64,000 nt of DNA from an uncultured bacterium (GTDB lineage: Bacteria; Armatimonadota; UBA5829): positions 62,001-126,000 of the forward strand of contig CALJES010000006.1 of NCBI GenBank assembly GCA_938074205.1, in the 5' to 3' direction. Below the pieces are notes generated by a model. That model did not search any database and was not told where the DNA came from. It was given only the letters and a program-made list of their open reading frames with translations. The position numbers and the translations under genes were made by a program. Of this stretch, positions 6,407-44,511 are shown in pieces. Position 1 is the stretch's first letter, and each line of letters starts with the position of its first letter.

Positions 6407-6407
6407 T

Positions 6408-6995
6408 TCACAATTTGCTTTCAACGTTTATCCTGCCAAACACGTCGAACAGTTTGAGTTCTCGAGCACGGAGATCTAGTGTGAGAGTGCGAGCGGTTAC
6501 TGAACCCAGCAACGACCGAAAATATACAGGCCCAGATGTGATGAGAACCATCCTTGATGTGTTCCACCTAAACCCTTGGGTGTTGATTATCTGGCCTTCA
6601 GGACTGCGTGCGCAGACACCGTGGGAAACAAACAGATCGCCAGAGAATGCATCATATCTAATCATTCCCGCATCAACATTCAGAGCGGGCGTGTGATCCT
6701 GGTAAACTATGCCCTGCTTTATCCCTATTAGGCTTATAACCCTGCGGTCTCGGGACAATTCCGCAGTTTTTGCGTGCAGACTCCAAAGCTTGATCCCTTT
6801 TGAAAGGGCTACGATGCGAGCATCCTTGGCACGCATGAGTGCAGATGGAAGCTGTAAAGGACCCAAAGGGGGCGTAGTATACGGCAGGCGGTGTCTGAAA
6901 ACGAAAAGACTCACCGCCATAAACGCCGCAAGAAGAACTAAGAACGCTAGCGGCCAACGCTTTCTCGCAGTATTTAGCTCGGTCAGCCGCTTCAT
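6408..6995 (-). CDS. lptC: LptC-like bitopic membrane protein of LPS export
   Basis: A 195-residue protein with a short basic N-terminus, one membrane helix (about residues 15-32) and a periplasmic beta-rich part. The segment ARIVALSKGIKLWSLHAKTAELSRD followed by GIKQGIVYQD resembles the LptC core (x-G-x-x-W-x-L-x-A). LptC receives LPS from the LptB2FG transporter and passes it to LptA. The gene lies 12 bases after the lipoprotein gene and one base before lptA, which supports the assignment more than sequence does. Similarity is weak, as is usual for LptC. Confidence 0.75.
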   Translation of the reverse strand: MKRLTELNTARKRWPLAFLVLLAAFMAVSLFVFRHRLPYTTPPLGPLQLPSALMRAKDARIVALSKGIKLWSLHAKTAELSRDRRVISLIGIKQGIVYQDHTPALNVDAGMIRYDAFSGDLFVSHGVCARSPEGQIINTQGFRWNTSRMVLITSGPVYFRSLLGSVTARTLTLDLRARELKLFDVFGRINVESKL

Positions 6996-7877: not shown

Positions 7878-7916
7878 CAACGACGACTCCTTGTGATACT
7901 CCGTTAAGATCGGTCA

Positions 7917-20317: not shown

Positions 20318-22132
20318 TTGTTGCAGCACCTTTTACGATCCAGGATTACCAAAGCAGTCTGCCACGTAACAATCCTGGCACTTCTGGCCACGTTTGCGCC
20401 CCTGCCGCTGGTCTCACGGGCGACTGCTCAACTCATGCCGACGTATTCAGTGGGAGTAGTTGACTTTATCAACGAGTCGGGCGTTCAGGGTGAGCTATTG
20501 GCCAGGCTAGCGACTGACGCAGTTGTTGTTGAGATGGCGAAGACCAACCGTTACGACGTCAGCATTACTCGCGCAATGATCAAAGCGGAAATGGATAAGC
20601 TCGGCATCCGCCCTCCCCTCTCAAAACTCGAACTGGTCAGGCTGGGAGAAGCACTGAACGCTGATGCAATGTTGGAAGGCTACGTCAAAGCTGTCCATCT
20701 GACAGGAACAGGCGAAACTCGGCGGGCAGCTGTCACTTTGGCAGTGCAAATGCGAGACCAAGCTTCCGGCGAAATAATAAACGGAGCAGTGCAGACAGGA
20801 ACATCTAGTGCTCGTATGGGCTATGTCCCCGATGATGATTCTCTGATTGTGGAAGCCGTAAACAATGCTGCGTTCCTCTGTGTTAAAACCATGGTGGACT
20901 ACATAATTCCCGAGGCCACGGTTATGATGAACATCAAAGAGAATCACGTTATGCTAAACCGTGGTTCGCGTGACGGTATAAAACCGGGAATGAGAATGAT
21001 TGTCCTACGTCGCGGAGAGATTATAGGCTATGTTGAAGTTCAGAGAGTAAGCGCAATCGACAGCGACGCAAGAATAATCAAATCGATGAGAGGTATACAA
21101 CCTGAGGACAAGGTGCGTGCCATATTCGATATGCCTTCGGTTGGAGTAAAGGCTGAGTCGGAAACCATACCATCTGGAGCCCCGACGGGTGTAAGGCGAA
21201 AGAGCAATACACTCAGCAAAATCGGGAGATTTGTGTTGGCTGCAGGCATTGTGTTTGGTATTGGTCAGATATTCAGATCTGGCCGCGGAAGTGAGCCCGC
21301 ACCAACAATCGGCACTGGTGACTTTCCAACCATTATCACCTGGGACCCGAGAAAATATGGCCATGGCCAAAACGTACTCGAGTATCAGATATTGCGGGAC
21401 GATTTCACGGACACTGCCGCACCAGTAAAAGTGATACGCGATCCTAGTGCGATAGATATGGGATGGACCGACGTATACAGCCTTTACGGTACAGCAACGG
21501 CGACCAATGTAACTTACTACCGACTCGCCAGCAACCCCGCCACGAGTTATACGGAAGTCACTGCCACTGTACCGCCTGAACCGTATGGGATCACCCACAA
21601 ATACCAGGTGAGAGTGCTATACAGTCTGACCACTACTACTCCCGGTGGTTCATCAGATCAAACTGGTCAGCAACAACAAACGACCACAACGCGCTACTAC
21701 TACACGCCCGTGAGCAACATAATAACAGCTACCGCGATTGAACCGGTTAAGTACACGGATATTGTGTCGCCTGCATATGATCCGGGGGTTGCACCACCTG
21801 AGATATTGGTTACCGATTTGCAAAATGGAACTATTAACTTCGAATGGAAGCGCAAGGATGGTGCCGACGTGTATTACATGGTGGTAGAACCTGTTGTCCC
21901 TGGCACCGGTCCAACCTGGCAAAGTCCATACATTTACGAGACCGGTCCGACGGTGTCACTGCCTGCAAACGCACGGATAGAGCTAGCAAGCGTATTGTCA
22001 AATTCGGCATACGCAGATAAGACTATGAAGTGGCGGGTTTATTGTCGGCATCAAGAAGATACAAGTCCAGCTTGGGTTAAGGGCCAAGAAGCCAGATTTG
22101 TCATTGGTGGTATGCCGCCCATATACCCGTAG
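20318..22132 (+). CDS. Exported CsgG/TolB-N-like protein with fibronectin-like C-terminal part
   Basis: A 604-residue exported protein. A signal peptide (hydrophobic to about residue 33, ending SRATAQ) is followed by a domain of about 180 residues that looks like the CsgG/LpoB/TolB-N fold: VGVVDFINESG, a DAVVVEMAKTNRYDV helix, and LGEALNADAMLEGYVKAV. Next is a beta part resembling FlgT C-terminal domains (MLNRGSRDGIKPGMRMIVLRRG). A hydrophobic segment at about 303-318 could cross a membrane. The rest is beta-rich with fibronectin III-like units. The start is TTG at 20318 with GGGAGGA eight bases upstream. Domain calls are by eye; the function is unknown. Confidence 0.65.
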   Translation: MLQHLLRSRITKAVCHVTILALLATFAPLPLVSRATAQLMPTYSVGVVDFINESGVQGELLARLATDAVVVEMAKTNRYDVSITRAMIKAEMDKLGIRPPLSKLELVRLGEALNADAMLEGYVKAVHLTGTGETRRAAVTLAVQMRDQASGEIINGAVQTGTSSARMGYVPDDDSLIVEAVNNAAFLCVKTMVDYIIPEATVMMNIKENHVMLNRGSRDGIKPGMRMIVLRRGEIIGYVEVQRVSAIDSDARIIKSMRGIQPEDKVRAIFDMPSVGVKAESETIPSGAPTGVRRKSNTLSKIGRFVLAAGIVFGIGQIFRSGRGSEPAPTIGTGDFPTIITWDPRKYGHGQNVLEYQILRDDFTDTAAPVKVIRDPSAIDMGWTDVYSLYGTATATNVTYYRLASNPATSYTEVTATVPPEPYGITHKYQVRVLYSLTTTTPGGSSDQTGQQQQTTTTRYYYTPVSNIITATAIEPVKYTDIVSPAYDPGVAPPEILVTDLQNGTINFEWKRKDGADVYYMVVEPVVPGTGPTWQSPYIYETGPTVSLPANARIELASVLSNSAYADKTMKWRVYCRHQEDTSPAWVKGQEARFVIGGMPPIYP

Positions 22133-22273
22133 GTAACCAGCTTTAGCAGATCCGAGGGTACTTTTCTCCCGTCTGCGGAAGCTCGTTGTCTAAATGTGGT
22201 GCGAATGACACAGCTAGATATGTCATAAGTATCTTCATTGCCCGCTCAGACAGCGAGCAGGAGGTTTGAGCGA

Positions 22274-24550
22274 ATGAACAAGTATAAGGGTTGGTTAGCT
22301 TTCTTATACACTACAGCGCTATTAGTGCTGTTGTGCACCTGTGTGTTTTGTCATAACGAAAGCGTAAAGCAGATATATGTGCCCAATGAATACATTGTGA
22401 AGGCGCAGCCAGGAAGCAACCCCCAGTTTGTCCGCCAGGCAGTTGAGAGAATGGGAGCGACGCTGGTTAAAGCGCTGCCAGTTGCAGACCACTATCTAAT
22501 CAAACTTGGAGGTGCGGGCGGTCACGCCAGTTTGTACACCGGGCGTACTAAATCTGCTCAGCCATTCCGGTGGGTGATAGAGAGCGTTCAGCCGAACTAC
22601 CTATACTATCTCTGTGCCGTGCCCAACGACGAGTACTGGCCCAAGCTATGGAACATGCGTCAAATCAATATGCCCGCCGCTTGGGAAATTGAGAAAGGCA
22701 AGGCAAGGGTTACAGTTGCTATAATTGACAGTGGAACTGCCAATCACCCGGATCTGCAAGGTAGACTCGTTCAGGGATACGATTTCATCGACAACGACAA
22801 CGATCCATCAAATGACCTTATAGGACATGGCACCCACTGCGCAGGCATAGTAGCCGCGCAAGGCAACAACGCGATAGGGGTTTGCGGAGTTTGCTGGAGC
22901 GGCGTTAAGATAATGCCAGTTCGAGTATTTAGCACAGGGGCCACGCCAACGAGCATGCTCGTTCAGGGAGAAGATTATGCCCTGAAGAACGGCGCGCAGG
23001 TGGCAAGTATGAGCTACGGAGGATATGGTGACGATCCGGCTCACCGAGCTAAGATATCTGAGATGGCAGCTGCAGGAATGGTGTTGGTTGCGGCTGCCGG
23101 AAACGATGCAACGAATACGCCCAGTTACCCAGCGGCTTATCCTGAAGTAATCTCAGTCTCTGCCGTAGGTCCTTATGACGCTATTGCCTACTACTCCAAC
23201 TACGGCAAGATAGACATAGCAGCCCCAGGTGGTGATGACTCCCTAGGAGAGGATGCTGAGATTTACAGTACTTTAGTTACCTGGTCTAACAACGCGCCGA
23301 CGTACACTTACGGGTACCTAGAAGGAACATCGATGGCGTGTCCGCACGTTGCAGGTGCCGCTGCTCTTCTTCTTAGTTATGGTGTACCCTCGGCAGAAGT
23401 CAAGAATCGCCTTCTTACCACCGCACGTCCCCCTAGGTCGGGAGGCATGGACTCCATTAGATATGGGGCCGGTATACTGGATGTTCGAGCAGCACTGGCA
23501 AACGCAATAGTTCGAATCGTAGAACCTGCCAAGGGAGCAACCGTAGGAACGTCTCCAGATTTCAGGATTAGTATTCAGGGCATTAATCTGGCGACCGTTA
23601 AGATCTACATTGACTATGCCGACGCAAATGACGACGGTATACCGGACGATCCAAATGAAGGCTTGGTTATCGACGGAACAACTGTCTACTTCTATTTAAA
23701 CTCGACAAGAACAGCCATACAGTTCAACTGGCGTGATATCTCGCCTTCGAGCACAATGGCAACTGGATCACACAATCTGTATGTTTCGGCTGATGCTGCA
23801 GCTGGCGGCGGAAGTGTGTCCGATTGGTGTGTCTTTTCAGTAGCGAGGCGTAAGATAGAAAAAGGGATTCACATGGTGGCATTGCCGTACGATCTTACCC
23901 AACGCGCCTTGGACACACCGGATAAGATACTTCTTGGAACGGCTTTTGACTATGGAGCGAGTCCGCGATCTTTGCTAATCCGGTGGATCTCAGTCCCTCG
24001 TTCAACAACCGACAATAATCCAGTAGGCTATCAATTGTATGACCCTGCCAACTCGGCTGACTGCGTATGGCTAAATCCTCTGACTACGTTCGCTGGAACA
24101 TCATTAGCTACAGGCGGTGGCTACGTATACGATATTGCCCTGAAAAAATTACGCTTTGTCTTTCCCGCCGGCTCTGGCTTCTGGTTGATCGTGCCATACG
24201 ACGTCTGGATAGATGAGTCGTATCCGACCCTGGACGCAGGTTCTAACTTTGACGGCTCAAAGGGCTTCCAAATCCCGTTATACAAGGGCTGGAACATGAT
24301 AGGTAACCCATACGCACATCCAGTACCGTGGAGGGCAGCGCTTTTCACGTACCAGGGCAAGACAAAACCGCTACTAGAGGCTGAGAGTGCAGGCTGGGTA
24401 AAATCCGCCCTATACACCTACGGCGGTTCGAGTGTTGGTTACCAGCGTGTTACAGATAGAGATCTTCTTGAGCCATATACGGGTTACTGGTTGTATGTCC
24501 TCGTTGGCGGGACTGGAACAGACTCGCTCGTTATGACAATTCTACCCTAG
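22274..24550 (+). CDS. Secreted subtilisin-like (S8) serine protease with C-terminal tail module
   Basis: A 758-residue secreted protease. The signal peptide is at residues 1-28, and an inhibitor I9-like propeptide region follows (YIVKAQPGSN...VKALPVADHYLIKL). The catalytic triad is D152 (VAIIDSG), H185 (GHGTHCAG) and S353 (GTSMACPH). After about residue 410 comes a beta domain (RIVEPAKGATVG), then a two-part tail from about 529: MVALPYDL...FPAGSGFWL, then GWNMIGNPYAHPVPW...YTGYW. The same tail ends the next two proteins. ATG at 22274 has AGGAGG nine bases upstream. It may process the neighbouring secreted proteins; that is inferred from position. Confidence 0.92.
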   Translation: MNKYKGWLAFLYTTALLVLLCTCVFCHNESVKQIYVPNEYIVKAQPGSNPQFVRQAVERMGATLVKALPVADHYLIKLGGAGGHASLYTGRTKSAQPFRWVIESVQPNYLYYLCAVPNDEYWPKLWNMRQINMPAAWEIEKGKARVTVAIIDSGTANHPDLQGRLVQGYDFIDNDNDPSNDLIGHGTHCAGIVAAQGNNAIGVCGVCWSGVKIMPVRVFSTGATPTSMLVQGEDYALKNGAQVASMSYGGYGDDPAHRAKISEMAAAGMVLVAAAGNDATNTPSYPAAYPEVISVSAVGPYDAIAYYSNYGKIDIAAPGGDDSLGEDAEIYSTLVTWSNNAPTYTYGYLEGTSMACPHVAGAAALLLSYGVPSAEVKNRLLTTARPPRSGGMDSIRYGAGILDVRAALANAIVRIVEPAKGATVGTSPDFRISIQGINLATVKIYIDYADANDDGIPDDPNEGLVIDGTTVYFYLNSTRTAIQFNWRDISPSSTMATGSHNLYVSADAAAGGGSVSDWCVFSVARRKIEKGIHMVALPYDLTQRALDTPDKILLGTAFDYGASPRSLLIRWISVPRSTTDNNPVGYQLYDPANSADCVWLNPLTTFAGTSLATGGGYVYDIALKKLRFVFPAGSGFWLIVPYDVWIDESYPTLDAGSNFDGSKGFQIPLYKGWNMIGNPYAHPVPWRAALFTYQGKTKPLLEAESAGWVKSALYTYGGSSVGYQRVTDRDLLEPYTGYWLYVLVGGTGTDSLVMTILP

Positions 24551-24631
24551 AATCAGTCTGCATCGCGCGGTTGCTGATATTTGGGATTTAAGGATTTAGT
24601 CCCAGGCAAACGAAAGGACCGGTAAGAAAGT

Positions 24632-26620
24632 ATGCGAGTGCTAGTTAATAACACGCTCCTGCTAGCGACCTTGGTGGTTATTCTTGGAAGCGCGGTTGGG
24701 GGGCAAGCTCAGCAGTTTTCGAGTGATGCCTGGTGGGAGAGTTTGTCGAATCGGTATATCTCCATAGACTTGGGAGTGAGAGGAACTGTTAAGCTTGATC
24801 AGAACTCTCCTGAGTGGCAGATAGCTGGACGGTGGTCTGTGTCTGCCAGAGAAGGCGATCCGGAAATAGCTAACGACAACAACTATCCGCTCGTGTACTT
24901 TGGAGATGTCTGCCCTGCTCATTACTTCGGATATTGGAAAATCCGAATTGGTGACACGGTGTATCTTGTGGGCGATTCTAACACCGGCTACTGGTCCAAG
25001 ATACCCTACGCATATGTTATTCCGCCACCTGGTCTAGGCCTCGGAAGAACTGGCGGCTACATTGATGGTGAGTGGACTGTTCGCAGTGCCGGTGCCGACC
25101 TGGCAACTATGCGAATCCGAATGTCGATAGTCAGAGACCAGTGCAGATTCGAGATTACACTTACTAACAAGTCCGCTGTGTCTCAGACACTCGGACTGTG
25201 CATGACCGGTGACGTTATGGTGGAAGCCACCGACCGTGGAGGCTATCCCTACATCCCTGGGAAGGGCTACGTGCGAACAACTGCGGTGGCTCCGAAACCC
25301 TATCCCATCATTCTTACAGGAAGCAAGATCCCAGCATTCTTTGAGACTTACGACAGTGTTGAGAACCCTGGTGTAGTCGCCAGGAACACCCTAACTTTGC
25401 AAGATTGCACCCCTCCTGACTATTTGGCAATTGGCGAATGGGACGAACTAGTAGGCGCGACGAACTGGCCGCCAGACGACTATAAGCCCGATGTGTCAAA
25501 AGCTGTGGATGATTTGACGTGGGTGTTGGTTTGGAACCCTACTGCACTTGCACCCGGTTCATCACGAAAGGTTGTTACTTATTATGGTATTGGTGCTGCA
25601 TCTGCCTCGTGGAACTACCGTGTCGGTACTAGGATGGAGCCAGACAGCGTTGTACTAGCAGTGCAGGGGCCCAGGTCGTTGAAATACAATTCGGTGACCG
25701 GAACCAATTATTTGGAGGGGCAGCCCTTCAGCATAAAAGCCTACATATACAATTTGGCGACCGATCCAGGTCCATATGAACTGGATGATGTAACAGTTAC
25801 TCTATACTTGCCGCCGGGATTGGAATTGGCTCCCATTGTACCGCAGACTGCCCAGCAAAACCTGGGCAAGGTCCAAGTGAACAGTGAATCTCTTCCTGCA
25901 AGTTGGGAAGTTCAGGCTACGGGCGAACATTGCGGCGAGCTGGAGTATTTTGTCACGGCTCGTGCTGCATCCGGGTGGCAGCAAATAGTCAGCCGCAAAA
26001 TAATGGTGCCTGCGACAAAGAAGGGTACACTGCGCAGCAGATGGCAGCTGATGCACGTACCCTTCACGTTCAACAATACGTTTGTTGAACACGCCTTTGG
26101 CATGCCGAGGAGCTCATTTGGCGCTTTCTACTACGATACAAGAAGCAACACGTATTTGTCACTTTCGCAGCTCCAACCCGGCCAAGGGTTCTGGATGTAT
26201 ATGAATCCTTCTGGATTACCTGCGGATCAGGTTTTGCCGTTCGTACTTGCCTCTGATGCTGCGATCGTCGCGAATCAGCTGGGAAGACAATTAGACGAGT
26301 ACCATATCAACCTATTCTCTGGCTGGAACCTGATTGGAAACCCCTTTGTTTATCCTGTGTATTGGGGTCAAGTGCTCGTTTGGAATAGAAGCACAAACAC
26401 AACGGTGTCTCTAGATCAAGCTGTGACCAACGGGTGGTTGAGCAAGACCATATTCACCTGGATTTCCAGTAGCAATTCTTATGAAAGTTACTCAAGCGAC
26501 GAAACCTTATTGCTTCCGTGGCGGGGTTACTGGGTAAGAGCAAAATATCCGGTAACGCTTATATTCCGACCATCTGTGCCACCGGCTTCTGACGTAACGG
26601 CAAAACCTGACGGAACGTAA
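24632..26620 (+). CDS. Secreted protein of unknown function with shared C-terminal tail module
   Basis: A 662-residue protein with a clear signal peptide (residues 1-26, ending GGQAQ). Residues 30-330 form a beta-rich domain I do not recognise (ISIDLGVRGTVKLDQ, DVMVEATDRGGYPYIPG). Residues 340-460 resemble an Ig-like or DUF11-like beta sandwich (SIKAYIYNLATDPGPYELDD, VTLYLPPGLEL). From about 464 it has the same two-part tail as its neighbours: WQLMHVPFTF...LQPGQGFWMY, then GWNLIGNPFVYPVYW...LPWRGYWVRA. It lies 81 bases after the protease gene and 34 before the giant gene, so the three are probably one transcript. Confidence 0.75.
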   Translation: MRVLVNNTLLLATLVVILGSAVGGQAQQFSSDAWWESLSNRYISIDLGVRGTVKLDQNSPEWQIAGRWSVSAREGDPEIANDNNYPLVYFGDVCPAHYFGYWKIRIGDTVYLVGDSNTGYWSKIPYAYVIPPPGLGLGRTGGYIDGEWTVRSAGADLATMRIRMSIVRDQCRFEITLTNKSAVSQTLGLCMTGDVMVEATDRGGYPYIPGKGYVRTTAVAPKPYPIILTGSKIPAFFETYDSVENPGVVARNTLTLQDCTPPDYLAIGEWDELVGATNWPPDDYKPDVSKAVDDLTWVLVWNPTALAPGSSRKVVTYYGIGAASASWNYRVGTRMEPDSVVLAVQGPRSLKYNSVTGTNYLEGQPFSIKAYIYNLATDPGPYELDDVTVTLYLPPGLELAPIVPQTAQQNLGKVQVNSESLPASWEVQATGEHCGELEYFVTARAASGWQQIVSRKIMVPATKKGTLRSRWQLMHVPFTFNNTFVEHAFGMPRSSFGAFYYDTRSNTYLSLSQLQPGQGFWMYMNPSGLPADQVLPFVLASDAAIVANQLGRQLDEYHINLFSGWNLIGNPFVYPVYWGQVLVWNRSTNTTVSLDQAVTNGWLSKTIFTWISSSNSYESYSSDETLLLPWRGYWVRAKYPVTLIFRPSVPPASDVTAKPDGT

Positions 26621-26654
26621 CGAAGTAAGAATCGAATCCTTGGAGTGTAGAAGG

Positions 26655-29600
26655 ATGATCTTTGGTATGCAAAAAGTCAGTTATCTGGGTGGTTCTGCAC
26701 GCCAGCAGCTCAAACGAGTGATCGCCCTGTCAGCTTTTGCGATTGTAGTAACTGTTGGTTCGAGCTTCGCTGATCTAAGCATGCTCGAAGGCACCACTAA
26801 AGCTACGTCCAACTCAGTCTGGAACTTTGCTGTGCGATGGCAAGACAGCGATGGGCTATGGCCCGTGTACATGCCGGATTCCGACACTGACTACAATTTG
26901 CAGCCTGATCCTATGGCTACGTTTGACAACACAGGTCAGGTTCTCGGACTGCGGACTGTCGCGACGGCTGTAGCACCGCTGCCGAGAGCCTACGCTTGGT
27001 ATCGCATTCCGGCGCTAAACAGCCTCGACGGTTCTATCAAGCTAAAGATCAATAAAGGAATTATCGGTTTAGACCCGAACCGTACGAATCCGAACGCGGT
27101 AGATCCCCGCAACCCAGGAAGGCCGGGTCCGGACAACCCTATACTTGGCGTATATGCTTTCCAGGCCGACGAAAGCGACGAGAATCCAAACCTATTCGAT
27201 CCGTTGAAGTACAGCGATGCTGGTCGGTACGGGGTTATAACCATCGAAGCAGACAAGTTGCCAGCCAGGTTGATTAATCCTCAGACCGGCAGAATGGACG
27301 ACTGGACGCCGCTCTATGTAAAGGTTTCTACGTGCGGCCTGTATGGGGTTTACACCAGGCAAGTAGGAATGCAAGAGTCAACCAACATGCAGACTCGACG
27401 TGTGAATCCCTACATGTCCAGCGTTCAACCTATTAACTATGCAAAGCAGCCTGAGTGGATGCCAGGCGTAATCACAGGCACGTGGCAAGGTCCTGGTGCT
27501 GGGCGTCCTCCGAGCCCAGCAGACTCGCAAGCTTATACCGTAACGCCCACGTTTGACCCTACGGCTTCAGACATGCGTGCTGTGACCGGGATATATTTGC
27601 CGCAGTTGATGAACGGTTTGGTTTACGACAGCACACACGTCGTTCCCGCCGACGCGAGCAAAGTTAAGATGGTGTTGGGCGTGTTCGCTCTATCAAATCA
27701 GGCAGGCACACGTTATGATGACACTCACGTTAACCCTTCTAATCCATCTGCTATCACGTTTGTGTCGGCCGTTTATGCTATCCATACCATGACCGGTACG
27801 CCGGTCGATTCGAGCCACGTCAGCCCGGCAGATCCCAGCAATATCCGCCGTGTTCTTAGTGTAAAGATTCCGGGCCAGGACGTTGAGTATTACGACGCTA
27901 GCCAGCATCCTTGGATGCCGGGAGACACGATTATAGCTCTGAAAGATGGGGTAGAACTGCCTAGTGACACGCAGTCCGTCGTTATCACTTATGAAACCGC
28001 CAATCTATATGATCCGCAAGACCCGTCCCTAGCCTACAAATACGATCCCAACAATGAGCTGACTCGCTATATTGCTCTATCGAGTCCGCTGCCGGAGGGA
28101 GCAAATACTGTTCGTATTGTTTACGGGGTCGGCACAGGACTTGACGGATTCAACTACTATGATCCGCAAAACGCTGACACTGCCTACGTGTTCGGTGATA
28201 AGCAAATAACTCTCAGGTATCCCCTACCCTCTGATGTAACTGATGTTCGGATTCTGTACGGCACGGATGAGCAACTTGAAACTCGCGGGTCTATAATCGA
28301 CTCGATGCACGTTGTACCACCCAACATATGGCGAATCGGCCGAATATCCGGAGTTTATGCAATTCAAGAGCAGGATGGAATTGTACAAGCTGGGTCCATA
28401 ACAACCCAAACAGGCGCTTGGGATACATCCGATCCCACTCGGATGACAGTCATCCCATCGCAGCCTGAAGTGATCGCAAAAGTACTTCGCGTTTATGATA
28501 GCCAGAATCGAGATTATTACGGCCCCGTAAACCCGATAAACCCATTCAAGCCCGGCGATAAAGTCATCAGATTGGATAAGCCTCTTCCGGTCGGGATAAA
28601 CAGCGTAACCATCAGCTATCAGGGTCCATCCACCACGGTCATACCCAGCGACTCAACGTTGATAAGGGGTATCCTTGGGGTTTATGCGGTGCGCGAGATG
28701 AGCGCAACCATGGTAGACAGTACGCACATAATTCCAGAGAAACCTCTTTCTATACGAAGCGTACGAGCCGTTTACGTAACGGCAAATCAATCTGGCACAC
28801 CGGACAACACCGATACCAAGAGACTGACGGTTATCCCATCCCTCCCTGCGATGATCGGCCGCGTATTCGGCGTTTACGACAACCCCGCAATGACGGGTAT
28901 TAACTACTTTGACCCCGATAATCCGGAAACGGCATTTCGACAGGGCGATCTTGTGATCAAGTTGAGTATTCCCCTCCCAGTAGGAGTATCATCAGTAACT
29001 ATCAACTATGAGACAATTAACCTTGGACCATCTTACGCTCAGGGCAGTAGCGAGATCACCTTGGCAAGGCCAATACCCACTTCCGTTCCGGCGATCTCTC
29101 CTGTGCCGATTCGCGTGGTGTACGTGAACAACTTAAACTACGCTGTCCCGAACACTCAGTCTTCGGCCATCACACTCCGAACACCACTGCCGCTGGGAAC
29201 AACTGATGTCGTAATACTTTACATTGATCGGACAAACCGCTATGGTGTAACCCCAGTTGGGACAATCCCAAGATTTGCGCCTGGCGAAGACACTATCGAG
29301 GTAGCAAATGCGTTTCCAGCAGATGCGCTCGGCGGTCATATTGAGTATACAGCGCACTTATTCGCTCCTAGTTATGACCCGTTCGACTATGATCCGAACA
29401 ATCCGTCTACCTATCCATATAGACCGTTCATTCCTGGCGACAAGGTCATTCGACTGAACAGGATAGATCCAAGCGTGCCACTATGGAGCAAGTATACAAC
29501 GCCCGGTGCGCTGAAGCTGTGTATAGCTTATCAGTCAAGCAAGCGTATGCCAGTCGGCGATTACTCGCAAAGCGGTACTATAAGCTTACCAATTCCGCTG

Positions 29601-32600: not shown

Positions 32601-35600
32601 TCCGTCAAACCGGAAAACCCGTCCGATATTTTGAGGGTTTGGGGTGTATATCTGACTGAAGATGTCGACAAAGCGTCAGGCACAGCTTCAACAAACTACT
32701 ACGAAACGGGGGCCGAACCCAACGAATTCACTGGAGACACTATCACACTGACAAGAACCTTACCGTTAGGTACAATGAAAGTTTGGGTTAAGTACGAGCC
32801 GAGGGCACCTATCGTCGGTCCCTTGCCGATTGCCCTGCCTGCACCGGCAGGAGTTATCCCCGATGCTCAAATATATGTAAACTATCCAACTAATTCGTCT
32901 CCAGTATTGATCGATGACCAGAAGAACGGTTGGATTAGCGACGATCCCAACCAACCGGATGATCGGTCTGTGCTGGTTATGAGAGGTCTGGCTGTATACC
33001 AGGGACAGCCGAGCATCAAGTATGTCACACCTGAATCACCGCGCGATATTGCATCCGTCGAGGGTGTGTATCTGACTCCGGATCTTTCTGGCGAAAATTA
33101 TTACGACCCCAGTATTCTCGAAACGCCCATGACGATGATCGGCACGGTTGACCCGACCGACCCAACTAGAAAGACCGTCATACCGGACGAGCCCGATCGA
33201 ATTGTATACGTAACGGGCGTCTTTGACCCGAACGATCCAAGCACCACTCCGACGAACTACTTTATGGGAGCTGGTTACCCGGATCCAACAAAGGTAGCTT
33301 GGCAAGAAGCTCTGATCGTAGGCACCAATACAGTTTGGCCTAAGAATCCGAACGACATAGTGTCGATTCAGGGCATATACCAATCGCCCGATGTTTCCAA
33401 GACGAACTATTATAGACAAGACCGCTTGTGTGCGCAGCGTGCCTATGCGTTGGGATATCTAGCCAAGCCATCGAACCCTCAGTTGATATCCCAGGTCCTA
33501 GGAATTTATCTGACTCAGTCGGAATCAGGAACCAACTACTACAATAGTTTTGCCGCGCCAGTGCCCTATTACTACAGCTTGACCTATGACTTCCCAGGTG
33601 GAACATCTACTGTCCACATACTGTATAGGGATTCTTCTGGGGCCACATCCTGGCAGCCAGCAACGGTATGGGTAGGAAGCCTAAGGCCGGCAGATTATCA
33701 ACCAATTAGCAGGGTGTTAGGAGCCTACTTGCTGCCGTCCGACGGAAAAATTCCTTACGATGCCAGTGGAAAGCCTGTTGCACAGGGTTTGAACTATGCC
33801 CCCAATTCATCTTACAAGACAGGGGATCTAGCAATAAGGATTATACCTGTTCAGGTGTCTTCCAATGGCGTCGCACCGAACATGTACATCATATTCGAAA
33901 GCCTACCGTTCGGCTTCGGACCCTACAATGAGTACCTAGCCTCGAGCCGCGATCTCACTGATCTGATGACCGGCGCGAGCACTATGTATCTAGCTTACTA
34001 TCCGCGCGCAGGTCTAACCACTGTAAGCAACAAGACCTTTGTCCCGCTGACATCGCCTCTTCCGGCCGGGGTTGACCGTGTCAATATTCGCTGCATTATG
34101 AAGGCGTTCAACGCAGGCGACACGATCATACCGCTTACAAAAGACCTGCCCGAGGGAACCGACACTGTTTACATCAAGTACGCTGATATAAGGTTCACAC
34201 ACCAAGGCAGGGGAGAAGCTCAGCAACCCATTAGCCTGTTGGGTACGCTTCTCTGGAGCACTGGCACTTCGCACTACGCGCCTGATGGTTGGAACGTAGG
34301 GTCGGCTGAGAAACTGTGGATGCGCGGAACACCCATTGATCCCGTAAACGTCGTTCCTGAGGACACTAGCGTGATAGAATCGGTAAACGGTGTCTTCCTC
34401 GCCCAGGATGCTGCTGGTTTCGACTACTATGCAGCCACACCTGCCCCATATGCCTCCGGGGACAGAACTATAACTCTTGGAACGCCCCTCCCTGCAGGCA
34501 CCACGCAGGTGTGGATTAGCTATTCGCCGCGTAGTGTTTATATCAAGAACAATCTGTATGATATAACATCCGGCGTAGTTGGCGTTTGGCTGAACAACAA
34601 GCGCGACGGTGAAAATTATTTCGATCCAAGACTCGGAGCCCGACATCCCGACAACCCGGATCACATCAGACTAACCAAGCTTGTGCCTGATGGAACCACT
34701 TACCTGTGGGCGCACTACTATCAAAAAGGCGAGTACCACATTGACAGATGGAACAGGAAGGTTGTCTTCCTACCAGGCTATGAGAAAGATGCTTCAACTG
34801 TAGTGACAGCGTCTTACTTCTTCGGTACAAAGATGCCGCAAGCGCTCACCGCGAACACGCCACCAACGCTTACTCAGGGCAAAGTCAGCAGGCTTCGAGG
34901 CAGCCGAAGTGATACTTATATATTCTCGGTAACCTATCGTGACCTGGATGGGCCTAATGGTCAGGCACCCGCGTATGTCCGAGTCTACATCGACGGAACG
35001 CCTTATGATATGACTCCCACTGGACAAGGCACACCGCCTTATCGTGAAGGCGCAGTGTACACGTATACACCACCTGACGGACTCTCCGGTGGATCGCACA
35101 AGTTCCACTTTGAAGCATCAGACGGTGCCGACATCGCCATTTACGACTGGTACACTGAGAATAATGTGCCCAGACCAACATCAGGCCAAACAATTAGGGA
35201 CCTTGACGGGCCGTGGGTGAACAATCCACCGGAACTCTCTGACGGCATCGTGACACCTAATCCGCCGAGTGGCATCAATCCGTGGGATAGTGTTGATTAC
35301 TACGTCACCTATATGGATCCGGACAATGATGAACCATACTTCTACGATCCTGTTAGGGACATTTACGATTACGATGCCGATAAGTCGGGGATACCGGATG
35401 GAGTTGAGTGGTCGGGTTCGCCTAGGTTGTGGGTTGACAGTGGCGTTAAGGACGTTGTGATTACTGGAACTGTAGAGTCGCTGGAAGACGATCCGATGGC
35501 TCCTGGCAAGAAGAGAACTATTGTTGTTGCGGGGAATCCTAAGTGGGAGACGGATAGGTTTGCTGGCCAGCTAATGCAGATTACTAATGGAGCTATTGCT

Positions 35601-38600
35601 GGCAGGGTTTACTTGATCCAGTCCAACACGGAGAACAAACTCTTCATAGCAACGGAAGATCTAGCGGCAGATGGGGTTAAGGATAGTACGGATCCTGAAC
35701 CAAGCCAGTTCAGAATCAACGGATTGCTTATGAGCAAAGCAGATCCGACCCAGCAGGATTACACAAAGGGTGTTCGGTATAAAATAACCGTGCCTAAGCT
35801 TGCTGTGGGCACGCATAAGTTCCACTTCACAGCGATGAGTCGTGAGAACAAGCCTCAATGGCTGATTCAGAAGTTGGAGGCGAAAGACCGAGTTCCCTAC
35901 TCCGTCAAAGTGCAGTATCCTGCAAGCGGCGACCAGAACGGCCCCATCGTGGTATCAACTCCGCCACCAGGTAACACCGCTCCGGTTATTAACAACACAC
36001 AAGATTCTTCGGTATATTTGGGACCGGTTGCCCAGTTGGCAGTAGCAACGGAGATCGACACTGTCGAAGCCTTCGATGCTGCGCGGTTCGCCACTATCCG
36101 CGAAGTCAGAGGCGTATTTCTGAACGCCAATGACTTCAGTCTGACATCTTTATCTGATGATCCGGCCAAGAACTACTATGATCCTATCGAAGGAATTGCT
36201 TTCAAGGCGGGTGACACCGCTATCAAACTGACCCGCAACTTGCCAGTGGCACCCAGTGCGGATATGGTACAGTTCGGAACCGTAGACGCAGCGACTCTGA
36301 CATCCGTAACACCGGATGCAGCCAACATCATCGAGAATGTAATCGGTGTATATCTGACTTCGGATCCGAGCCTCGCTGGTGTAAACTACTATGGTAGTAC
36401 TGGATCTTTTGACGGTAAAACCATAACGCTCGCTCAGCCGCTCCCCAGCGGAACGAAGACCGTGTATATCCATTGTGCTCTGAAGCCGGGGCTAACGTGG
36501 ACGTCGAATCCGCCAGTGCCGGTGTACGTAAAGTACTTCTCAATAACTAACAAGACTGTCTTCCAGGCAAGCGATCTTCTCACGTTTAGAATCAACTATC
36601 GCGACGCAGATGGTGATCCGCCTAGTTATCACGACGGCGTGCAGGGCTATGTGAAGGTTGTTTTCAACAACCTCAATCAGAGCAGGAATATGCGACTACT
36701 GAACTGGACCGGCGGCGTGGTCGACTATACAAAGGATCAAGTGTTCACCACAGAACCCATTAACCCGCCTGAAGGAATATACAAGTACCACTTTGAAGCA
36801 TCGGATGGGTACTATGTGTCCCGCTGGCCGCAGGGTACACTCGGCGATCCAACGGCAAACGATTATCCAATTAGGGTCAACTACAGGCCGGTGCTTTCTA
36901 ACGGTAAAGTCGAACCAACGGCCGGTCAGTCGGCAACCAACTTTACGTTTACGGTGACCTACAAGGACCAAGATGGGCCGGGTGCCACACAGCCCCAGGT
37001 TTACGCGAGGATCACAAAAGCCGACGGTACCCGCGGCTATGTTCGAATACCTATGCGAATGAAGACCGGTAGTCCAAACTACCAAACCGGTGTAGAATTC
37101 GATCTCGTTGTAGTTCCTAACAAGCTCAACCCAGCGCTCCAACCTGGACAGTATAAGGTTGTCTTCGAAGCGACCGATGGCGACGGCGAAGACGCTGTAC
37201 CGTTACCGCAGCCTAGTCAGGATCAATTGTACTTTACGATTAGAGACACAAATGCAGCACCGGTACTTTCAGAGCCGAAAGTTGAACCGGCTGCCGGTAA
37301 GCTGAACACGACGTTTGTGTACAGCGTGACGTATAGAGATGATGACGGAGATGCACCCATAAGCAAATTAACAGGCGCCAAGGATGTGATCACAGTAACA
37401 ATTGACAAGGGCAAAGCGTCTCAACAGGTGATAAGCCTGACAAAATCATCAACTGCACCTGCTAATCCGACACCCCAGGATTACAAAAGCGGCATCCGCT
37501 ATGACAACAAAACGCAACCAATATCTGGCAAGAAGCTAGGCGCGGGGCAGCACACATTCGAGGTTTCTGCCAGTGACGGTACTGCTGACGCGCTACCAGT
37601 GTTAGGTACCGGTCCGGTTCTGCTGATACCATACTTCGATCAGTTCAGAGCTGTCGATGCTGCAGCCACTAATCCGGATGCAGCTCCGGCACTCAGAGTT
37701 GCGAACGTGGGACAAGAAGTAGTCTTTGTGGGTAACATGAAATTCCCGGACAACCCTGTGGCGCAACCGCCAGCCCAGATTTCCAATCTATCGATAGTCG
37801 TGACCAAACCGGATGGCACGAGTATCACGTTGTCAGGTAGCATCACTGACCTAAAAGAGGAAATCCAATACGGAAAGCGCATAGGATGGACAGCAAAGAT
37901 CCGTGTCACCTATCCCAAAGGTGTTGATGCGTCCCTTGTAACCGGCACTAGTCTATCACTCAATGCAACTGGAGAATGGACCGTTGGTATATCGTGGCCC
38001 GGAGACTCAGTGTGGGACAAAGCAGACAATGCTGGTAAGGAGTTTACCATAATCGTCGGTGGGCCGATGAGAACGGTCGCAGTCGCAGATCCGGCGTATC
38101 CAGATGAAAGCACGCCACTTGTTGACATGATAACGGTACCAAAGATCATCGGTTCCGCCGACCCAGGACGAATATTCGGTTATGAACGTGCACTCGAAAT
38201 GCAAATAGTGCGCTGGGATCCAACGTCTATGACATACTTCAGATACGGAACACAAGGCATATTCCCTGACCTGCAGCCTGGTTATGCAATTTGGATCAAG
38301 CCTAGGTCGACATACCCGGCCGAGAGTATCTCGCTGTCAGACGTTGAGAACGGTCTAATTGCACTCGGGAATCCAGAGGCTGCTGTCAATGAACGAAAGA
38401 AGTACAGGTTGATTAAGCCTTTTGTGAAGGATTACCCAGTAGACTCGTCAGGCAACTTGTTGCCGTGCACGATATCGCTGAAGGCCGGTTGGAATCAGTT
38501 TGGTAACATATTCTTCAATTGGAAGAAGGATTCAACTGGTGCCATCGTTACTCCCAGACAGGACGTAGGCATTCCGATAGCTGAGCTAAGTGTGCGATAT

Positions 38601-38948
38601 ATGGGTCAAACCAAGTCACTTGCAGAAGCTGCTAAGGCAGGTTGGATCCGAGACTACGCGTGGCGATATGACGCTGTCAAGCGGCAGTATGTGCTGGTCC
38701 ACGCCTCGGCAGCTGCTGCAGAGTCGGTGATCAAAGCTTGGAGCGGTTATTGGATAAGAGCATTCGTAGACTGTGAGTTGATAATAAACCCGAATACAAG
38801 CTACAACGGACCTTCTGCAAGCAGCTCTCAAACTAAGACCGAATCAGTAAAGATGTTACGAATAGCGGCGGTTGGAGCGCCTGATGTGGAAGAGACAGAA
38901 CTGCTAGCTGCATATGGCCTCGAAGCGCCACCGCCTATCCCTGAATGA
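26655..38948 (+). CDS. Giant secreted repeat protein (4,097 residues) with shared C-terminal tail module
   Basis: A 4,097-residue exported protein, roughly 0.45 MDa. The signal peptide spans about residues 15-40 (VIALSAFAIVVTVGSSFA). At least two repeat families fill it. Family A (bases 27520-29360, 32580-34560 and 36040-36490) has the pattern HVVPxxPxxIxxVxGVY, NYYDP, GDxxIxL, then PLPxGTxxVxIxY. Family B (about nine copies at 30310-32520, 34855-35960 and 36530-37640) has NxPPxLSxGxV, FxVTYRDxDGDxP, YxxGVxY and FEASDG, and resembles PKD/cadherin-like beta sandwiches. Residues from about 3806 are the two-part tail (LQPGYAIWIKP, then GWNQFGN...WSGYWIRA). ATG at 26655 has GGAG nine bases upstream. 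The frame is uninterrupted; function is unknown, and a surface layer, adhesin or sheath is plausible. Confidence 0.8.
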   Translation: MIFGMQKVSYLGGSARQQLKRVIALSAFAIVVTVGSSFADLSMLEGTTKATSNSVWNFAVRWQDSDGLWPVYMPDSDTDYNLQPDPMATFDNTGQVLGLRTVATAVAPLPRAYAWYRIPALNSLDGSIKLKINKGIIGLDPNRTNPNAVDPRNPGRPGPDNPILGVYAFQADESDENPNLFDPLKYSDAGRYGVITIEADKLPARLINPQTGRMDDWTPLYVKVSTCGLYGVYTRQVGMQESTNMQTRRVNPYMSSVQPINYAKQPEWMPGVITGTWQGPGAGRPPSPADSQAYTVTPTFDPTASDMRAVTGIYLPQLMNGLVYDSTHVVPADASKVKMVLGVFALSNQAGTRYDDTHVNPSNPSAITFVSAVYAIHTMTGTPVDSSHVSPADPSNIRRVLSVKIPGQDVEYYDASQHPWMPGDTIIALKDGVELPSDTQSVVITYETANLYDPQDPSLAYKYDPNNELTRYIALSSPLPEGANTVRIVYGVGTGLDGFNYYDPQNADTAYVFGDKQITLRYPLPSDVTDVRILYGTDEQLETRGSIIDSMHVVPPNIWRIGRISGVYAIQEQDGIVQAGSITTQTGAWDTSDPTRMTVIPSQPEVIAKVLRVYDSQNRDYYGPVNPINPFKPGDKVIRLDKPLPVGINSVTISYQGPSTTVIPSDSTLIRGILGVYAVREMSATMVDSTHIIPEKPLSIRSVRAVYVTANQSGTPDNTDTKRLTVIPSLPAMIGRVFGVYDNPAMTGINYFDPDNPETAFRQGDLVIKLSIPLPVGVSSVTINYETINLGPSYAQGSSEITLARPIPTSVPAISPVPIRVVYVNNLNYAVPNTQSSAITLRTPLPLGTTDVVILYIDRTNRYGVTPVGTIPRFAPGEDTIEVANAFPADALGGHIEYTAHLFAPSYDPFDYDPNNPSTYPYRPFIPGDKVIRLNRIDPSVPLWSKYTTPGALKLCIAYQSSKRMPVGDYSQSGTISLPIPLPQKTEPLQSVFVDYRILSSVGIPNPNPNADPPYINATSEPPKPGLTILATYTVGIPYMGKVERLSFYEPDPVPHPLPQISSTGKFTFPSPMNVTNIWAQYRRQEPDTVPGASGRRYGVVWANIGSTYRNRAPMYIDPIGGYDPIAGVTYRVAASRGLNLSNPKQQPSCNLEENYPQYTNRLIFDPRQNPMWYANVLRANGDGTPRTFDVSFTGIAYKDNWVVYSATQTITVHDSRPRISDEMIDHGGVAGNRDYLTSYPRGGDPDPLVPEPAVEINPTFPDDGSSSTQFVFRVRYENQDGLPPLPWLPQAADPWNSSCGPTGVVLYLDEQGTGDYKPHFMAPEDPNKPGAGNVYIYRVLPHHTFAWSGPSEPVGYPWNWAVRTYESLACGVYHYFFACSDDSLTFDNGSLVFSNQPSPIEWGEAVGYYSTGLDPSLPRQVTDFPEISRPANRRPSDKLDRAIPYDSTLYVDRYVLVPGQFHYRGYPLSASEHPVVTCELRMPPADDLNIPYDDAKYGYGRFFGTIYPYSRATNPLIRGGAGGVNDPIYHGHSALAETCGATTKTENVFRILYKQKDNKPPVYIKLFINNASYKSGTGANYQYTAYTMYPRPGQPQPYNYRTGVWYEYKTKLPPGPHTYYFEAYDGYHVVRFPVRPDKYPYDDAGADQSAWGYYVDAWVPTTSLPSERGNADYFDNDYFPGPYVNNPCVLSEASVTPSTGKEGQNFRYRIKYTDPDGQRPYNAYVYIEVNNRGEVRRFSMVPETPFLDPAADHSDEFRKGVYYILDTATIKDLTLENGVRRFYFEFTDDWGAYYDLNDRIQGETTRYPEAAGSWITGPVISGNRPPTLTKGSVTSQDGTANPATLWTFRVTYRDLDNDPPAVIKLYLGELQPDGRTVLWDEGHAMLKADPGDIVYSDGADYYYQTRLGTSASAALSAQKQYFYAFVAFDGVDYATYNSSSNDELRSDAANCMLFDPLIRVNSSTYEIRPLVVQKATVVTSSSVKPENPSDILRVWGVYLTEDVDKASGTASTNYYETGAEPNEFTGDTITLTRTLPLGTMKVWVKYEPRAPIVGPLPIALPAPAGVIPDAQIYVNYPTNSSPVLIDDQKNGWISDDPNQPDDRSVLVMRGLAVYQGQPSIKYVTPESPRDIASVEGVYLTPDLSGENYYDPSILETPMTMIGTVDPTDPTRKTVIPDEPDRIVYVTGVFDPNDPSTTPTNYFMGAGYPDPTKVAWQEALIVGTNTVWPKNPNDIVSIQGIYQSPDVSKTNYYRQDRLCAQRAYALGYLAKPSNPQLISQVLGIYLTQSESGTNYYNSFAAPVPYYYSLTYDFPGGTSTVHILYRDSSGATSWQPATVWVGSLRPADYQPISRVLGAYLLPSDGKIPYDASGKPVAQGLNYAPNSSYKTGDLAIRIIPVQVSSNGVAPNMYIIFESLPFGFGPYNEYLASSRDLTDLMTGASTMYLAYYPRAGLTTVSNKTFVPLTSPLPAGVDRVNIRCIMKAFNAGDTIIPLTKDLPEGTDTVYIKYADIRFTHQGRGEAQQPISLLGTLLWSTGTSHYAPDGWNVGSAEKLWMRGTPIDPVNVVPEDTSVIESVNGVFLAQDAAGFDYYAATPAPYASGDRTITLGTPLPAGTTQVWISYSPRSVYIKNNLYDITSGVVGVWLNNKRDGENYFDPRLGARHPDNPDHIRLTKLVPDGTTYLWAHYYQKGEYHIDRWNRKVVFLPGYEKDASTVVTASYFFGTKMPQALTANTPPTLTQGKVSRLRGSRSDTYIFSVTYRDLDGPNGQAPAYVRVYIDGTPYDMTPTGQGTPPYREGAVYTYTPPDGLSGGSHKFHFEASDGADIAIYDWYTENNVPRPTSGQTIRDLDGPWVNNPPELSDGIVTPNPPSGINPWDSVDYYVTYMDPDNDEPYFYDPVRDIYDYDADKSGIPDGVEWSGSPRLWVDSGVKDVVITGTVESLEDDPMAPGKKRTIVVAGNPKWETDRFAGQLMQITNGAIAGRVYLIQSNTENKLFIATEDLAADGVKDSTDPEPSQFRINGLLMSKADPTQQDYTKGVRYKITVPKLAVGTHKFHFTAMSRENKPQWLIQKLEAKDRVPYSVKVQYPASGDQNGPIVVSTPPPGNTAPVINNTQDSSVYLGPVAQLAVATEIDTVEAFDAARFATIREVRGVFLNANDFSLTSLSDDPAKNYYDPIEGIAFKAGDTAIKLTRNLPVAPSADMVQFGTVDAATLTSVTPDAANIIENVIGVYLTSDPSLAGVNYYGSTGSFDGKTITLAQPLPSGTKTVYIHCALKPGLTWTSNPPVPVYVKYFSITNKTVFQASDLLTFRINYRDADGDPPSYHDGVQGYVKVVFNNLNQSRNMRLLNWTGGVVDYTKDQVFTTEPINPPEGIYKYHFEASDGYYVSRWPQGTLGDPTANDYPIRVNYRPVLSNGKVEPTAGQSATNFTFTVTYKDQDGPGATQPQVYARITKADGTRGYVRIPMRMKTGSPNYQTGVEFDLVVVPNKLNPALQPGQYKVVFEATDGDGEDAVPLPQPSQDQLYFTIRDTNAAPVLSEPKVEPAAGKLNTTFVYSVTYRDDDGDAPISKLTGAKDVITVTIDKGKASQQVISLTKSSTAPANPTPQDYKSGIRYDNKTQPISGKKLGAGQHTFEVSASDGTADALPVLGTGPVLLIPYFDQFRAVDAAATNPDAAPALRVANVGQEVVFVGNMKFPDNPVAQPPAQISNLSIVVTKPDGTSITLSGSITDLKEEIQYGKRIGWTAKIRVTYPKGVDASLVTGTSLSLNATGEWTVGISWPGDSVWDKADNAGKEFTIIVGGPMRTVAVADPAYPDESTPLVDMITVPKIIGSADPGRIFGYERALEMQIVRWDPTSMTYFRYGTQGIFPDLQPGYAIWIKPRSTYPAESISLSDVENGLIALGNPEAAVNERKKYRLIKPFVKDYPVDSSGNLLPCTISLKAGWNQFGNIFFNWKKDSTGAIVTPRQDVGIPIAELSVRYMGQTKSLAEAAKAGWIRDYAWRYDAVKRQYVLVHASAAAAESVIKAWSGYWIRAFVDCELIINPNTSYNGPSASSSQTKTESVKMLRIAAVGAPDVEETELLAAYGLEAPPPIPE

Positions 38949-39055
38949 TGCCGAACGTTCTTTTGGTAGACGTGCAAGATTCTGCTAGCTAATTTTTACA
39001 CCATTGCTCAACAAGACAGTATCGCGGACATAAGATATCTGCCGGAGGAATTAGA

Positions 39056-39799
39056 ATGAAACATAGAACACCAAGCCTAATGGCTTATCTTGCCCTTGGC
39101 CTTACGTTTGGAATGCTGACTTTACAGCCTGCAGACGCATGGCTTTTCGGACTGTGGAAACCTAAGAAATCGGTTGTAAAGATGACGAGGCATACGCTTG
39201 TCATATTCCCGTTCGATATAGGGAGTGTATCTAATCTTCCTGAGGGATTCGGTGAAGCGGTGGCCTCAGACGTTAGAACAATGCTTGCAAATAGCGACTT
39301 TTACATGCCTTTTCTCTACCGGTCGATGCTGGCACCGATACAAAGGGCAAAAGAAGACAACGTTCTGAAATCCTCAGACATGGAGCCACCATTTGCTGAA
39401 GATCGGGCGAAGACTCTAAAGCTTGCCCAGCTGCTTGCAGCAGATTACTATTTGGTCGGGGAAATAGACGATTATCAAATAGATCGCACAAACCGAGTGG
39501 CTGAAATAACCCTAAAAGCAGATCTCTACGACGCGAAGACAACCAAGCTAATTAGAACTCTACTAGTAACGGGCAGAACACTGGAGTCTACTTCGGGAGA
39601 TGAAGACGAGTTGCGTGATATTGCCAAGGGCGTTGCGGTGACCAAGCTTGTTGCCGAACTACTTACTAACCTGCCGAAAACTGAAGCCAAACCAACGTTG
39701 AGCAAGACTGAATCGACAAAATCGCATTCTACGACTGGTGCCGAAGCACTACCCCCTTCTCTGCCACCTACAATAAACACACCTGAACCCCCAAAATAG
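39056..39799 (+). CDS. Exported CsgG/TolB-N-like protein
   Basis: A 247-residue protein with a signal peptide ending LQPADA (about residue 28). The mature part matches the CsgG/TolB-N type of fold: TLVIFPFDIGSVSNLPEGFGEAVASDVRTML, then AQLLAADYYLVGEIDDYQID and ADLYDAKTTKLIRT. No lipobox cysteine is present, unlike true CsgG. The last 45 residues are Thr/Ser/Pro-rich and probably disordered. ATG at 39056 has a strong GGAGGA six bases upstream. It closes the block that starts with the related domain at 20318. An outer-membrane pore role would be an analogy to curli CsgG, not shown here. Confidence 0.65.
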   Translation: MKHRTPSLMAYLALGLTFGMLTLQPADAWLFGLWKPKKSVVKMTRHTLVIFPFDIGSVSNLPEGFGEAVASDVRTMLANSDFYMPFLYRSMLAPIQRAKEDNVLKSSDMEPPFAEDRAKTLKLAQLLAADYYLVGEIDDYQIDRTNRVAEITLKADLYDAKTTKLIRTLLVTGRTLESTSGDEDELRDIAKGVAVTKLVAELLTNLPKTEAKPTLSKTESTKSHSTTGAEALPPSLPPTINTPEPPK

Positions 39800-43629: not shown

Positions 43630-44511
43630 GTGAGCAGAGCCGACAGGTGCCAACCTGATAACAATACGCAAAGGGCGTCATCCGACAACTCTGGCCGCAT
43701 TCAAGAACACATCGCTTCAGTGGCCCTTGCACCTGGCAACGCGGTAATGAGGTCACTGGATCAATTCTTCGAGTTTCTAGGCGAGTCATTCCTGCTGGTG
43801 TTGAGGACTTGTAGTTTCATATTTCGGCTAGACGTAGATCTCAGAGAAATGCTCCGCCAGATGGCAATTATTGGGGTTGCATCCTTGCCAATAGTCGTTG
43901 TAACAGTTGTATTCTCTGGCGCAGTGCTCTCCCTGTATATGTCGCAGCTAGTGGTAAAATGGGGTGTCGGCGGATATACAGGCGCGGCAGTCGGCTTGTC
44001 TATTGCTCGCGAGCTTGGACCTGTCGTGACCGCCGTGGTCGTAGCAGCAAGAGCCGGCAGCGCTATCGCTGCCGAAATCGGCACTATGCAGGTGACCGAA
44101 CAGATTGATGCGCTACGCGCTCTTGCGGTAAGTCCTGTGCAATATCTTGTTGTACCCAGGTTATTGGCATCGATCGTAATGCTCCCGATATTGACGTTGA
44201 TAGCAGATATTACGGGAGTCATTGCCGGCTACGGGGTTGCTGTTGTGAACGGAGTTGCAGGCGAGAGTTTCATCAGCAGCCTAAAGATGCAGTTGACTAC
44301 ATATGACGTCACTATGGGATTGATAAAAACCCTTTTCTTCGGCGCCGTAGTTGCCACAGTGGGTTCTCAGCAGGGTCTTAGGACATCAGGAGGAGCCACA
44401 GGGGTAGGAAGATCTACCACTAGCGCCGTCGTGAAATCTATTGTCATCATCTACATTCTCAACTTCTTCCTGGCTTACGTTATGTTCGGCGGAAAGACCG
44501 CATTTCTATGA
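43630..44511 (+). CDS. mlaE: MlaE-type ABC transporter permease
   Basis: An MlaE/YrbE-family (DUF140) permease of an MCE lipid transporter in the inner membrane, 293 residues from GTG 43630 or 254 from ATG 43747. Family segments are SGAVLSLYMSQLVVKWG, the signature ELGPVVTAVVVAARAGSAIAAEIGTM and EQIDALRALAVSPVQYLVVPR. About five hydrophobic helices are seen. The first 39 residues of the long form are polar and not family-like, which favours 43747, but the promoter position permits a leaderless GTG. It overlaps mlaF by four bases. Confidence 0.92.
   Translation: MSRADRCQPDNNTQRASSDNSGRIQEHIASVALAPGNAVMRSLDQFFEFLGESFLLVLRTCSFIFRLDVDLREMLRQMAIIGVASLPIVVVTVVFSGAVLSLYMSQLVVKWGVGGYTGAAVGLSIARELGPVVTAVVVAARAGSAIAAEIGTMQVTEQIDALRALAVSPVQYLVVPRLLASIVMLPILTLIADITGVIAGYGVAVVNGVAGESFISSLKMQLTTYDVTMGLIKTLFFGAVVATVGSQQGLRTSGGATGVGRSTTSAVVKSIVIIYILNFFLAYVMFGGKTAFL

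Follow-up and report, generated by a model that had tools for sequence, protein, structure and literature searches.

A linked set of envelope genes, kept in order across almost the whole phylum Armatimonadota, seems to encode a so far undescribed machinery that builds or displays the cell surface. Its genes encode exported proteins, as judged by inspection of their signal peptides; three of them share one C-terminal module (the tail), two related proteins (P0001 and P0005) flank these, and a sixth gene encodes an LptD-like barrel. The reading that we favour, at somewhat less than an even chance, is that the block encodes a system of Armatimonadota for export or display at the outer membrane, in which the barrel, a probable LptD paralogue, works with P0001 and P0005, and in which the tail is a recognition or anchoring module. 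A fuller version is more doubtful and is offered tentatively: an undescribed system for the export or display of proteins at the outer membrane, ancestral to and near-universal in Armatimonadota, which combines a recruited LptD paralogue, a new C-terminal client module, and a Pro-rich docking motif found on both the machine and lipoproteins.

The Gene Block and Its Surroundings

The window, that is, the whole 64,000-nucleotide stretch of DNA that was analysed, comes from a MAG assigned to Armatimonadota, whose 19 contigs total 3.02 Mb; P0001 of the nearest named relative, the isolate A05DMB-I-24, is 93% identical to that of the window. Five adjacent plus-strand ORFs, P0001 to P0005, span positions 20318-39799 (Table 1), exactly where a preliminary description of this DNA had placed five consecutive genes. 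That description had also given all five a signal peptide, which inspection upholds for 5/5 and a hydropathy scan for 4/5, P0005 falling under the threshold. Promoter and terminator scans of the block yielded signals that did not exceed those of shuffles. Downstream of the block, MlaE, MlaF-like ABC and MlaD genes, which belong to envelope lipid transport, stand in a row.

Table 1. Features of the block and of related loci. Plain positions are those of the window; L and C labels denote fetched loci and contigs, and G000 is the window's genome.
Feature	Location	Strand	Remarks
P0001	20318-22132	+	604 aa
P0002	22238-24550	+	770 aa as longest ORF; likely start is an internal Met
Tail of P0002 (GW..GYW module)	23861-24547	+	
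P0003	24632-26620	+	662 aa
Tail of P0003	26018-26578	+	
P0004	26640-38948	+	4102 aa as longest ORF; 4097 aa from an internal Met
Tail of P0004	38121-38801	+	
P0005	39056-39799	+	247 aa
LptD-like barrel (sixth gene)	G000:C6:151404-153332	-	outside the window
MlaE, MlaF-like ABC, MlaD genes	43630-46711	+	
Lipoprotein with CarboxypepD_reg domains	7008-7880	-	
LptC- and LptA/OstA-like genes	5618-6995		
Second LptD-like protein	L056:2028-4427	-	799 aa; G000 contig C3
CsgG-type exported protein	L058:5887-6849	-	320 aa; G000 contig C1
Possible Big_1/P0005-like fusion	L101:9230-13687	-	1485 aa
P0005 relative with extended C-terminus	L026:15035-15832		
Tailed protein with M6 peptidase domain	L027:9328-12696	-	family f14
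Tailed protein + CGGGG-lipoprotein pairs	L060 4179-9098; L062 10303-13999; L063 8160-13703; L116 1-3880; L067, L117-L119, L127, L131		

Conservation Across the Phylum

All genome-scale counts of P0001, P0005, the tail and the barrel given here are counts within Armatimonadota. A profile search of the 205 genomes of the phylum that are at least 90% complete found P0001 relatives, mostly full length, in 203, which represent 122 of 123 genera. Single-sequence searches of a sample of 41 genomes recovered P0001 relatives in 39 and P0005 relatives in at least 30, the latter being a lower bound, and the tail was found in all 41, at 1-20 matches per genome. The expectation of the preliminary description that tail-bearing genes would co-occur with TolB-N-like genes is thus borne out; the converse, tails in a genome without such genes, which it had named as evidence against its proposal, was encountered only marginally, in one near-complete genome (G022) with seven tails and no P0001 relative.

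In loci fetched from many families, the order is P0001, a tailed subtilase, a tailed P0003-like protein, often a giant tailed protein, and P0005, all on one strand, and several families have a second large tailed protein upstream of P0001. The giant protein, the subtilase or P0005 is missing in some clades, and in the loci fetched from family f16 (L096-L098 and L104) the block is cut down to P0001, a single tailed protein and the barrel. Among the matches listed for both, 95/122 genomes place P0001 and the barrel together on a contig, and in 93 of these 95 the barrel follows downstream of P0001, within 25 kb and in the same orientation. The two exceptions among the matches listed are G011 and the genome of the window; in the latter, the barrel lies ~50 kb from the block on the opposite strand, so the window's block is a rearranged version. 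The preliminary description did not recognise the gene set as a named system, and this still holds for what has emerged as a linked envelope gene set with an order kept across the phylum; no paper naming it was found, within a partial coverage of the literature.

The Sixth Gene, an LptD-Like Barrel

Overlooked in the preliminary description, the sixth gene encodes a protein of 640-730 aa that adjoins P0005 in most clades. The protein begins with a Big_1/invasin Ig domain, continues with a jellyroll like that of LptD and closes with a presumed barrel, whose last residue, or one close to it, is often aromatic. The family is present in 203/205 near-complete genomes. Its profile matches the invasin Ig domain 1cwv (E = 5e-12) and LptD 7omm (E = 4e-11), the latter over residues 103-283, which take in the jellyroll and the first barrel strands only; we infer the remainder of the barrel. 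Pfam PF04453, the C-terminal barrel of LptD, was found in 0/41 genomes, with E. coli and Caulobacter controls positive. A second LptD-like protein of 799 aa, with relatives in 37/41 genomes, adjoins an LptF/G-like permease and is probably the real LptD of the phylum, missed by PF04453. With this separate gene beside LptF/G, the block's barrel is more likely an LptD paralogue than the LPS transporter itself, and it is left free for another job. It departs from LptD in its extra Big_1 domain, in having no PF04453 match, in the size of the barrel (~390 residues against ~580, as an estimate), and in its genetic linkage, which is to surface proteins and not to Lpt genes. In one clade, a larger protein matches both the barrel-family profile and the P0005-family domain and is a possible fusion (Table 1).

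The function of LptD itself suggests a different reading of the block. LptD exports glycolipid, working on LPS together with LptA and LptE, and its jellyroll receives lipid from LptA. The block's barrel could likewise be a second lipid or glycolipid exporter, with P0001 and P0005 as LptE- or LpoB-like partners and with tailed proteins that bind or protect the exported glycan. The homology to LptD does include the jellyroll, relatives of both P0001 and P0005 give weak LptE matches, LptA/LptC-like and Mla genes also lie within the window, and Armatimonadetes are listed among the phyla with LPS core genes (PMC5007114). Against this, the homology ends after the first strands, with PF04453 absent, the separate LptD-like gene is already at hand beside LptF/G, and no glycan or lipid genes were seen in the block, such that we consider a lipid exporter unlikely, if well worth keeping in mind.

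P0001 and P0005 as Relatives of LpoB and FlgT Rather than CsgG

P0001 starts with a signal peptide, followed by an LpoB/TolB-N (FlgT_M)-like alpha/beta domain (aa ~41-195), a FlgT_C/TsaP-like barrel domain (aa ~196-271), a hydrophobic segment (aa ~302-319), two FN3-like domains and a C-terminal MPPIYP. Its profile matches TsaP 3jc8 (E = 2e-6, profile positions 188-263) and LpoB structures (4q6l, E = 5e-4, profile positions 32-150), and its relatives reach Pfam LpoB (1e-9), CsgG (best 2e-8, in 5/27 relatives), FlgT_C (PF16538, 6e-5) and, weakly, the MreC barrel and LptE. An AF2 model of aa 37-301, from an alignment without relatives from other genomes, had a pLDDT of 42. P0005 is an exported LpoB/TolB-N/PelC-like alpha/beta protein with a Pro-rich C-terminus, whose profile gives a weak PelC match and whose relatives match LpoB (E = 1e-9), FlgT_M (2e-4) and, weakly, LptE. 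The N-terminal alpha/beta domain is common to the two proteins (profile-profile probability 99.3%, E = 1e-20, 191 columns).

FlgT and TsaP are ring proteins of flagellar or secretin complexes, TsaP being the partner of a secretin ring. The succession of a FlgT_M-like and then a FlgT_C-like domain in P0001 follows the order of FlgT/TsaP, but P0001 has neither the LysM domain of TsaP nor the N-domain of FlgT, carries added FN3-like domains, and belongs to a block without a flagellar or secretin gene. By a simple scan, a later hydrophobic segment is frequent in both the P0001 and the P0005 families, and many P0005 relatives extend with such a segment, a Gly run and a PPPPPF end. Around aa 302-319 of P0001 and in the C-terminal parts of P0005 relatives (one is given in Table 1), a basic stretch leads into the hydrophobic segment, which is succeeded by a run of Gly and a PPPPPF end. 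The topology of such an arrangement after an exported domain is at odds with the positive-inside rule, and the arrangement is possibly a sorting signal.

The preliminary description had noted a CsgG/TolB-N-type domain in the outer two proteins and proposed that they serve the outer-membrane step, CsgG-family proteins being able to form export pores there (curli). The shared domain is confirmed, as an LpoB/TolB-N-like one; the likeness to CsgG is not, there being no Pfam CsgG row at E<=10 for P0001 or P0005 themselves and matches only in some relatives. Compared with single E. coli proteins, a profile of P0001 relatives gives LpoB a probability of 80% and CsgG one of 6.5%. The membrane-hairpin loops measure 28 + 37 aa in E. 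coli CsgG versus 14 + 19 aa in P0001 and 11 + 17 aa in P0005. Because both hairpin regions are too short for CsgG-size hairpins, a curli-type pore is not supported, and we have rejected it; what was found, by loop length, is the case that the preliminary description had set against its own pore, namely LpoB/TolB-N-like domains without pore-forming segments. Both proteins also differ from other members of the LpoB/TolB-N/CsgG/PelC superfamily in that two paralogues flank client genes, and no Cys stands at their likely cleavage sites, which leaves them without a lipobox. With no csgA/B/E/F-like genes seen either, a curli-like system with CsgG-type pores is very improbable in spite of the minority of P0001 relatives that reach Pfam CsgG, and the LptD-like barrel is the better candidate for the outer-membrane component. 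Elsewhere in the window's genome, on a contig other than the block's, the sole protein above the Pfam CsgG cut-off, an exported one (Table 1), lies in a region that also contains prepilin-like ORFs and a secretin (C1:128476).

Domains of the LpoB and TsaP kinds occur in proteins that act at peptidoglycan or at ring structures. Together with the FN3 and Ig domains that occur throughout the block, they would suit a structural tether that exports nothing but connects surface proteins and peptidoglycan with the outer membrane. Yet no peptidoglycan-binding domain was found in the block, and SLH-domain proteins occur in 41/41 genomes, many of them with a length of 570-700 aa that resembles OmpM, the Terrabacteria outer-membrane tether (PMC10628300). 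A tether of this kind thus probably exists already, which makes a second one in the block improbable.

Tailed Proteins and the Shared C-Terminal Module

That the middle three proteins carry one C-terminal module, as first described, is corroborated by pairwise blastp of their C-terminal regions (E = 4e-12, 3e-8 and 8e-7; 22-28% identity); the homology covers the last 200-300 residues, and GWN..GN and GYW are invariant in all three. GW..GYW-like motifs are present in secreted proteins of other phyla. A profile of 40 tails had no match in PDB at E<=10 and no credible match in Pfam. Of the AF2 model of the tail (pLDDT 51), no more than a portion of the C-terminal third is dependable, and VIA-align found no clear structural match to it (best Z 4.7), so no known fold is assigned.

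The description of P0002 as a subtilisin-like protease was accurate: it is an exported protein with a Peptidase_S8 domain (Pfam, E = 1e-51), the triad Asp164/His197/Ser365 in place and the tail at its C-terminus. P0003 is exported, and its homologues across the phylum occupy the corresponding place in the block; it exceeded the cut-off of no Pfam or NCBIfam family, its N-terminal part is without a known domain, and a plasmid search for relatives outside the phylum gave no match. The giant exported P0004 is fairly called a repeat protein, in that profiles derived from P0004 itself recover one repeat in ~16 copies and a second, Ig-like repeat in 10; the copies are diverged, and plain self-blastp gave no match at 1e-3. 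Its tail is followed by a linker of ~50 aa that ends in APPPIPE, and homologues of 1,600-3,300 aa stand at the same place in other loci. In family f14, a tailed protein with an M6 peptidase domain adjoins P0001.

Several exported proteins, including a protease, with a common C-terminal module and a locus with an outer-membrane barrel recall Type IX and other C-terminal-tag systems. The differences are that the tails match no NCBIfam sorting-domain model at E<=1, that the barrel is LptD-like and not SprA, and that the tail is not always terminal, since a FlgD Ig-like domain comes after it in many clades.

Many unrelated proteins outside the block also carry the tail, again often followed by the FlgD Ig-like domain, and this breadth speaks for a coat or adhesive layer at the cell surface for which an ordinary T2SS is the exporter; in it, the tail would be an extracellular beta domain for assembly or binding and the genes would be linked for co-expression. 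Secretins are present in 20/21 genomes, so a T2SS could export the clients, and both T2SS and LPS genes have been reported in Fimbriimonas (PMC4072686). Such a coat leaves the strict linkage to the LptD-paralogue barrel and the FlgT/LpoB-like pair unexplained; it is a serious contender, although in our estimate a doubtful one.

Proline-Rich C-Termini and Associated Lipoproteins

ELPPPP, DTPPPPP, DELPPPPPF and GLEAPPPIPE are examples of the C-termini of P0001, P0005 and many homologues of P0004. The pattern PP(x)0-2P falls in the last 14 residues of 47/84 P0001 and P0005 relatives, against 2/266 other ORFs and 32/2942 internal windows, a contrast that is large even though the motif is loose and the sequences compared are kin, so that its Fisher value should not be read as a true probability. 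A first set of P0004 relatives has the C-terminal motif in 11/27. Genome-wide, a strict DNA pattern for PPxPPF-stop has few matches, many of them random, while the in-frame ORFs that end in this way are P0005 relatives or lipoprotein-like proteins (with uncertain N-termini in L089 and L090). Away from the block, a large tailed protein is recurrently followed by a small Gly-rich lipoprotein (GCGGGGG) with a PPxP end (Table 1), a pair that was seen in 6/20 newly fetched loci (L116-L119, L127 and L131). Within the window, a lipoprotein with CarboxypepD_reg domains is Gly-rich after its Cys, ends in IEPPPPPSF as in the P0005 family, and adjoins the LptC- and LptA/OstA-like genes.

A Proposed Mechanism

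Under the export or display reading, which draws on domain families and gene order, Sec would carry the tailed proteins (the subtilase, P0003 and the giant P0004) over the inner membrane, and a complex of the LptD-paralogue barrel, P0001 and P0005 would be their point of arrival at the outer membrane. Counting against this reading are the tail's lack of a known fold, the FlgD Ig-like domain behind the tail in many clades, the clades that have lost or never had the giant protein, the subtilase or P0005, the displaced barrel of the window's genome, and the odd topology of the hydrophobic segment near the C-terminus. The barrel protein, with its Big_1 domain, jellyroll and barrel, and relocated in the window's genome, would provide the outer-membrane step, and P0001 (FlgT/TsaP-like and likely oligomeric) and P0005 (LpoB-like) would be related periplasmic ring or adaptor proteins. 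The tail would be a putative recognition or anchoring module, and the Pro-rich C-termini of P0001, P0005, P0004 and the small lipoproteins may be a docking element for a shared partner. P0004 would be the main surface product, and the subtilase a putative processing enzyme that trims clients or partners.

Implications for Armatimonadota

A block order kept across nearly the whole phylum, each of the two core genes being present in all but two of the near-complete genomes, probably points to a central role in the envelope. If it is true that an LptD paralogue handles proteins here, the fold of the LPS translocon would serve two purposes. Overall, Armatimonadota, a phylum that is little studied but has several cultured members, gain a concrete envelope system for testing.
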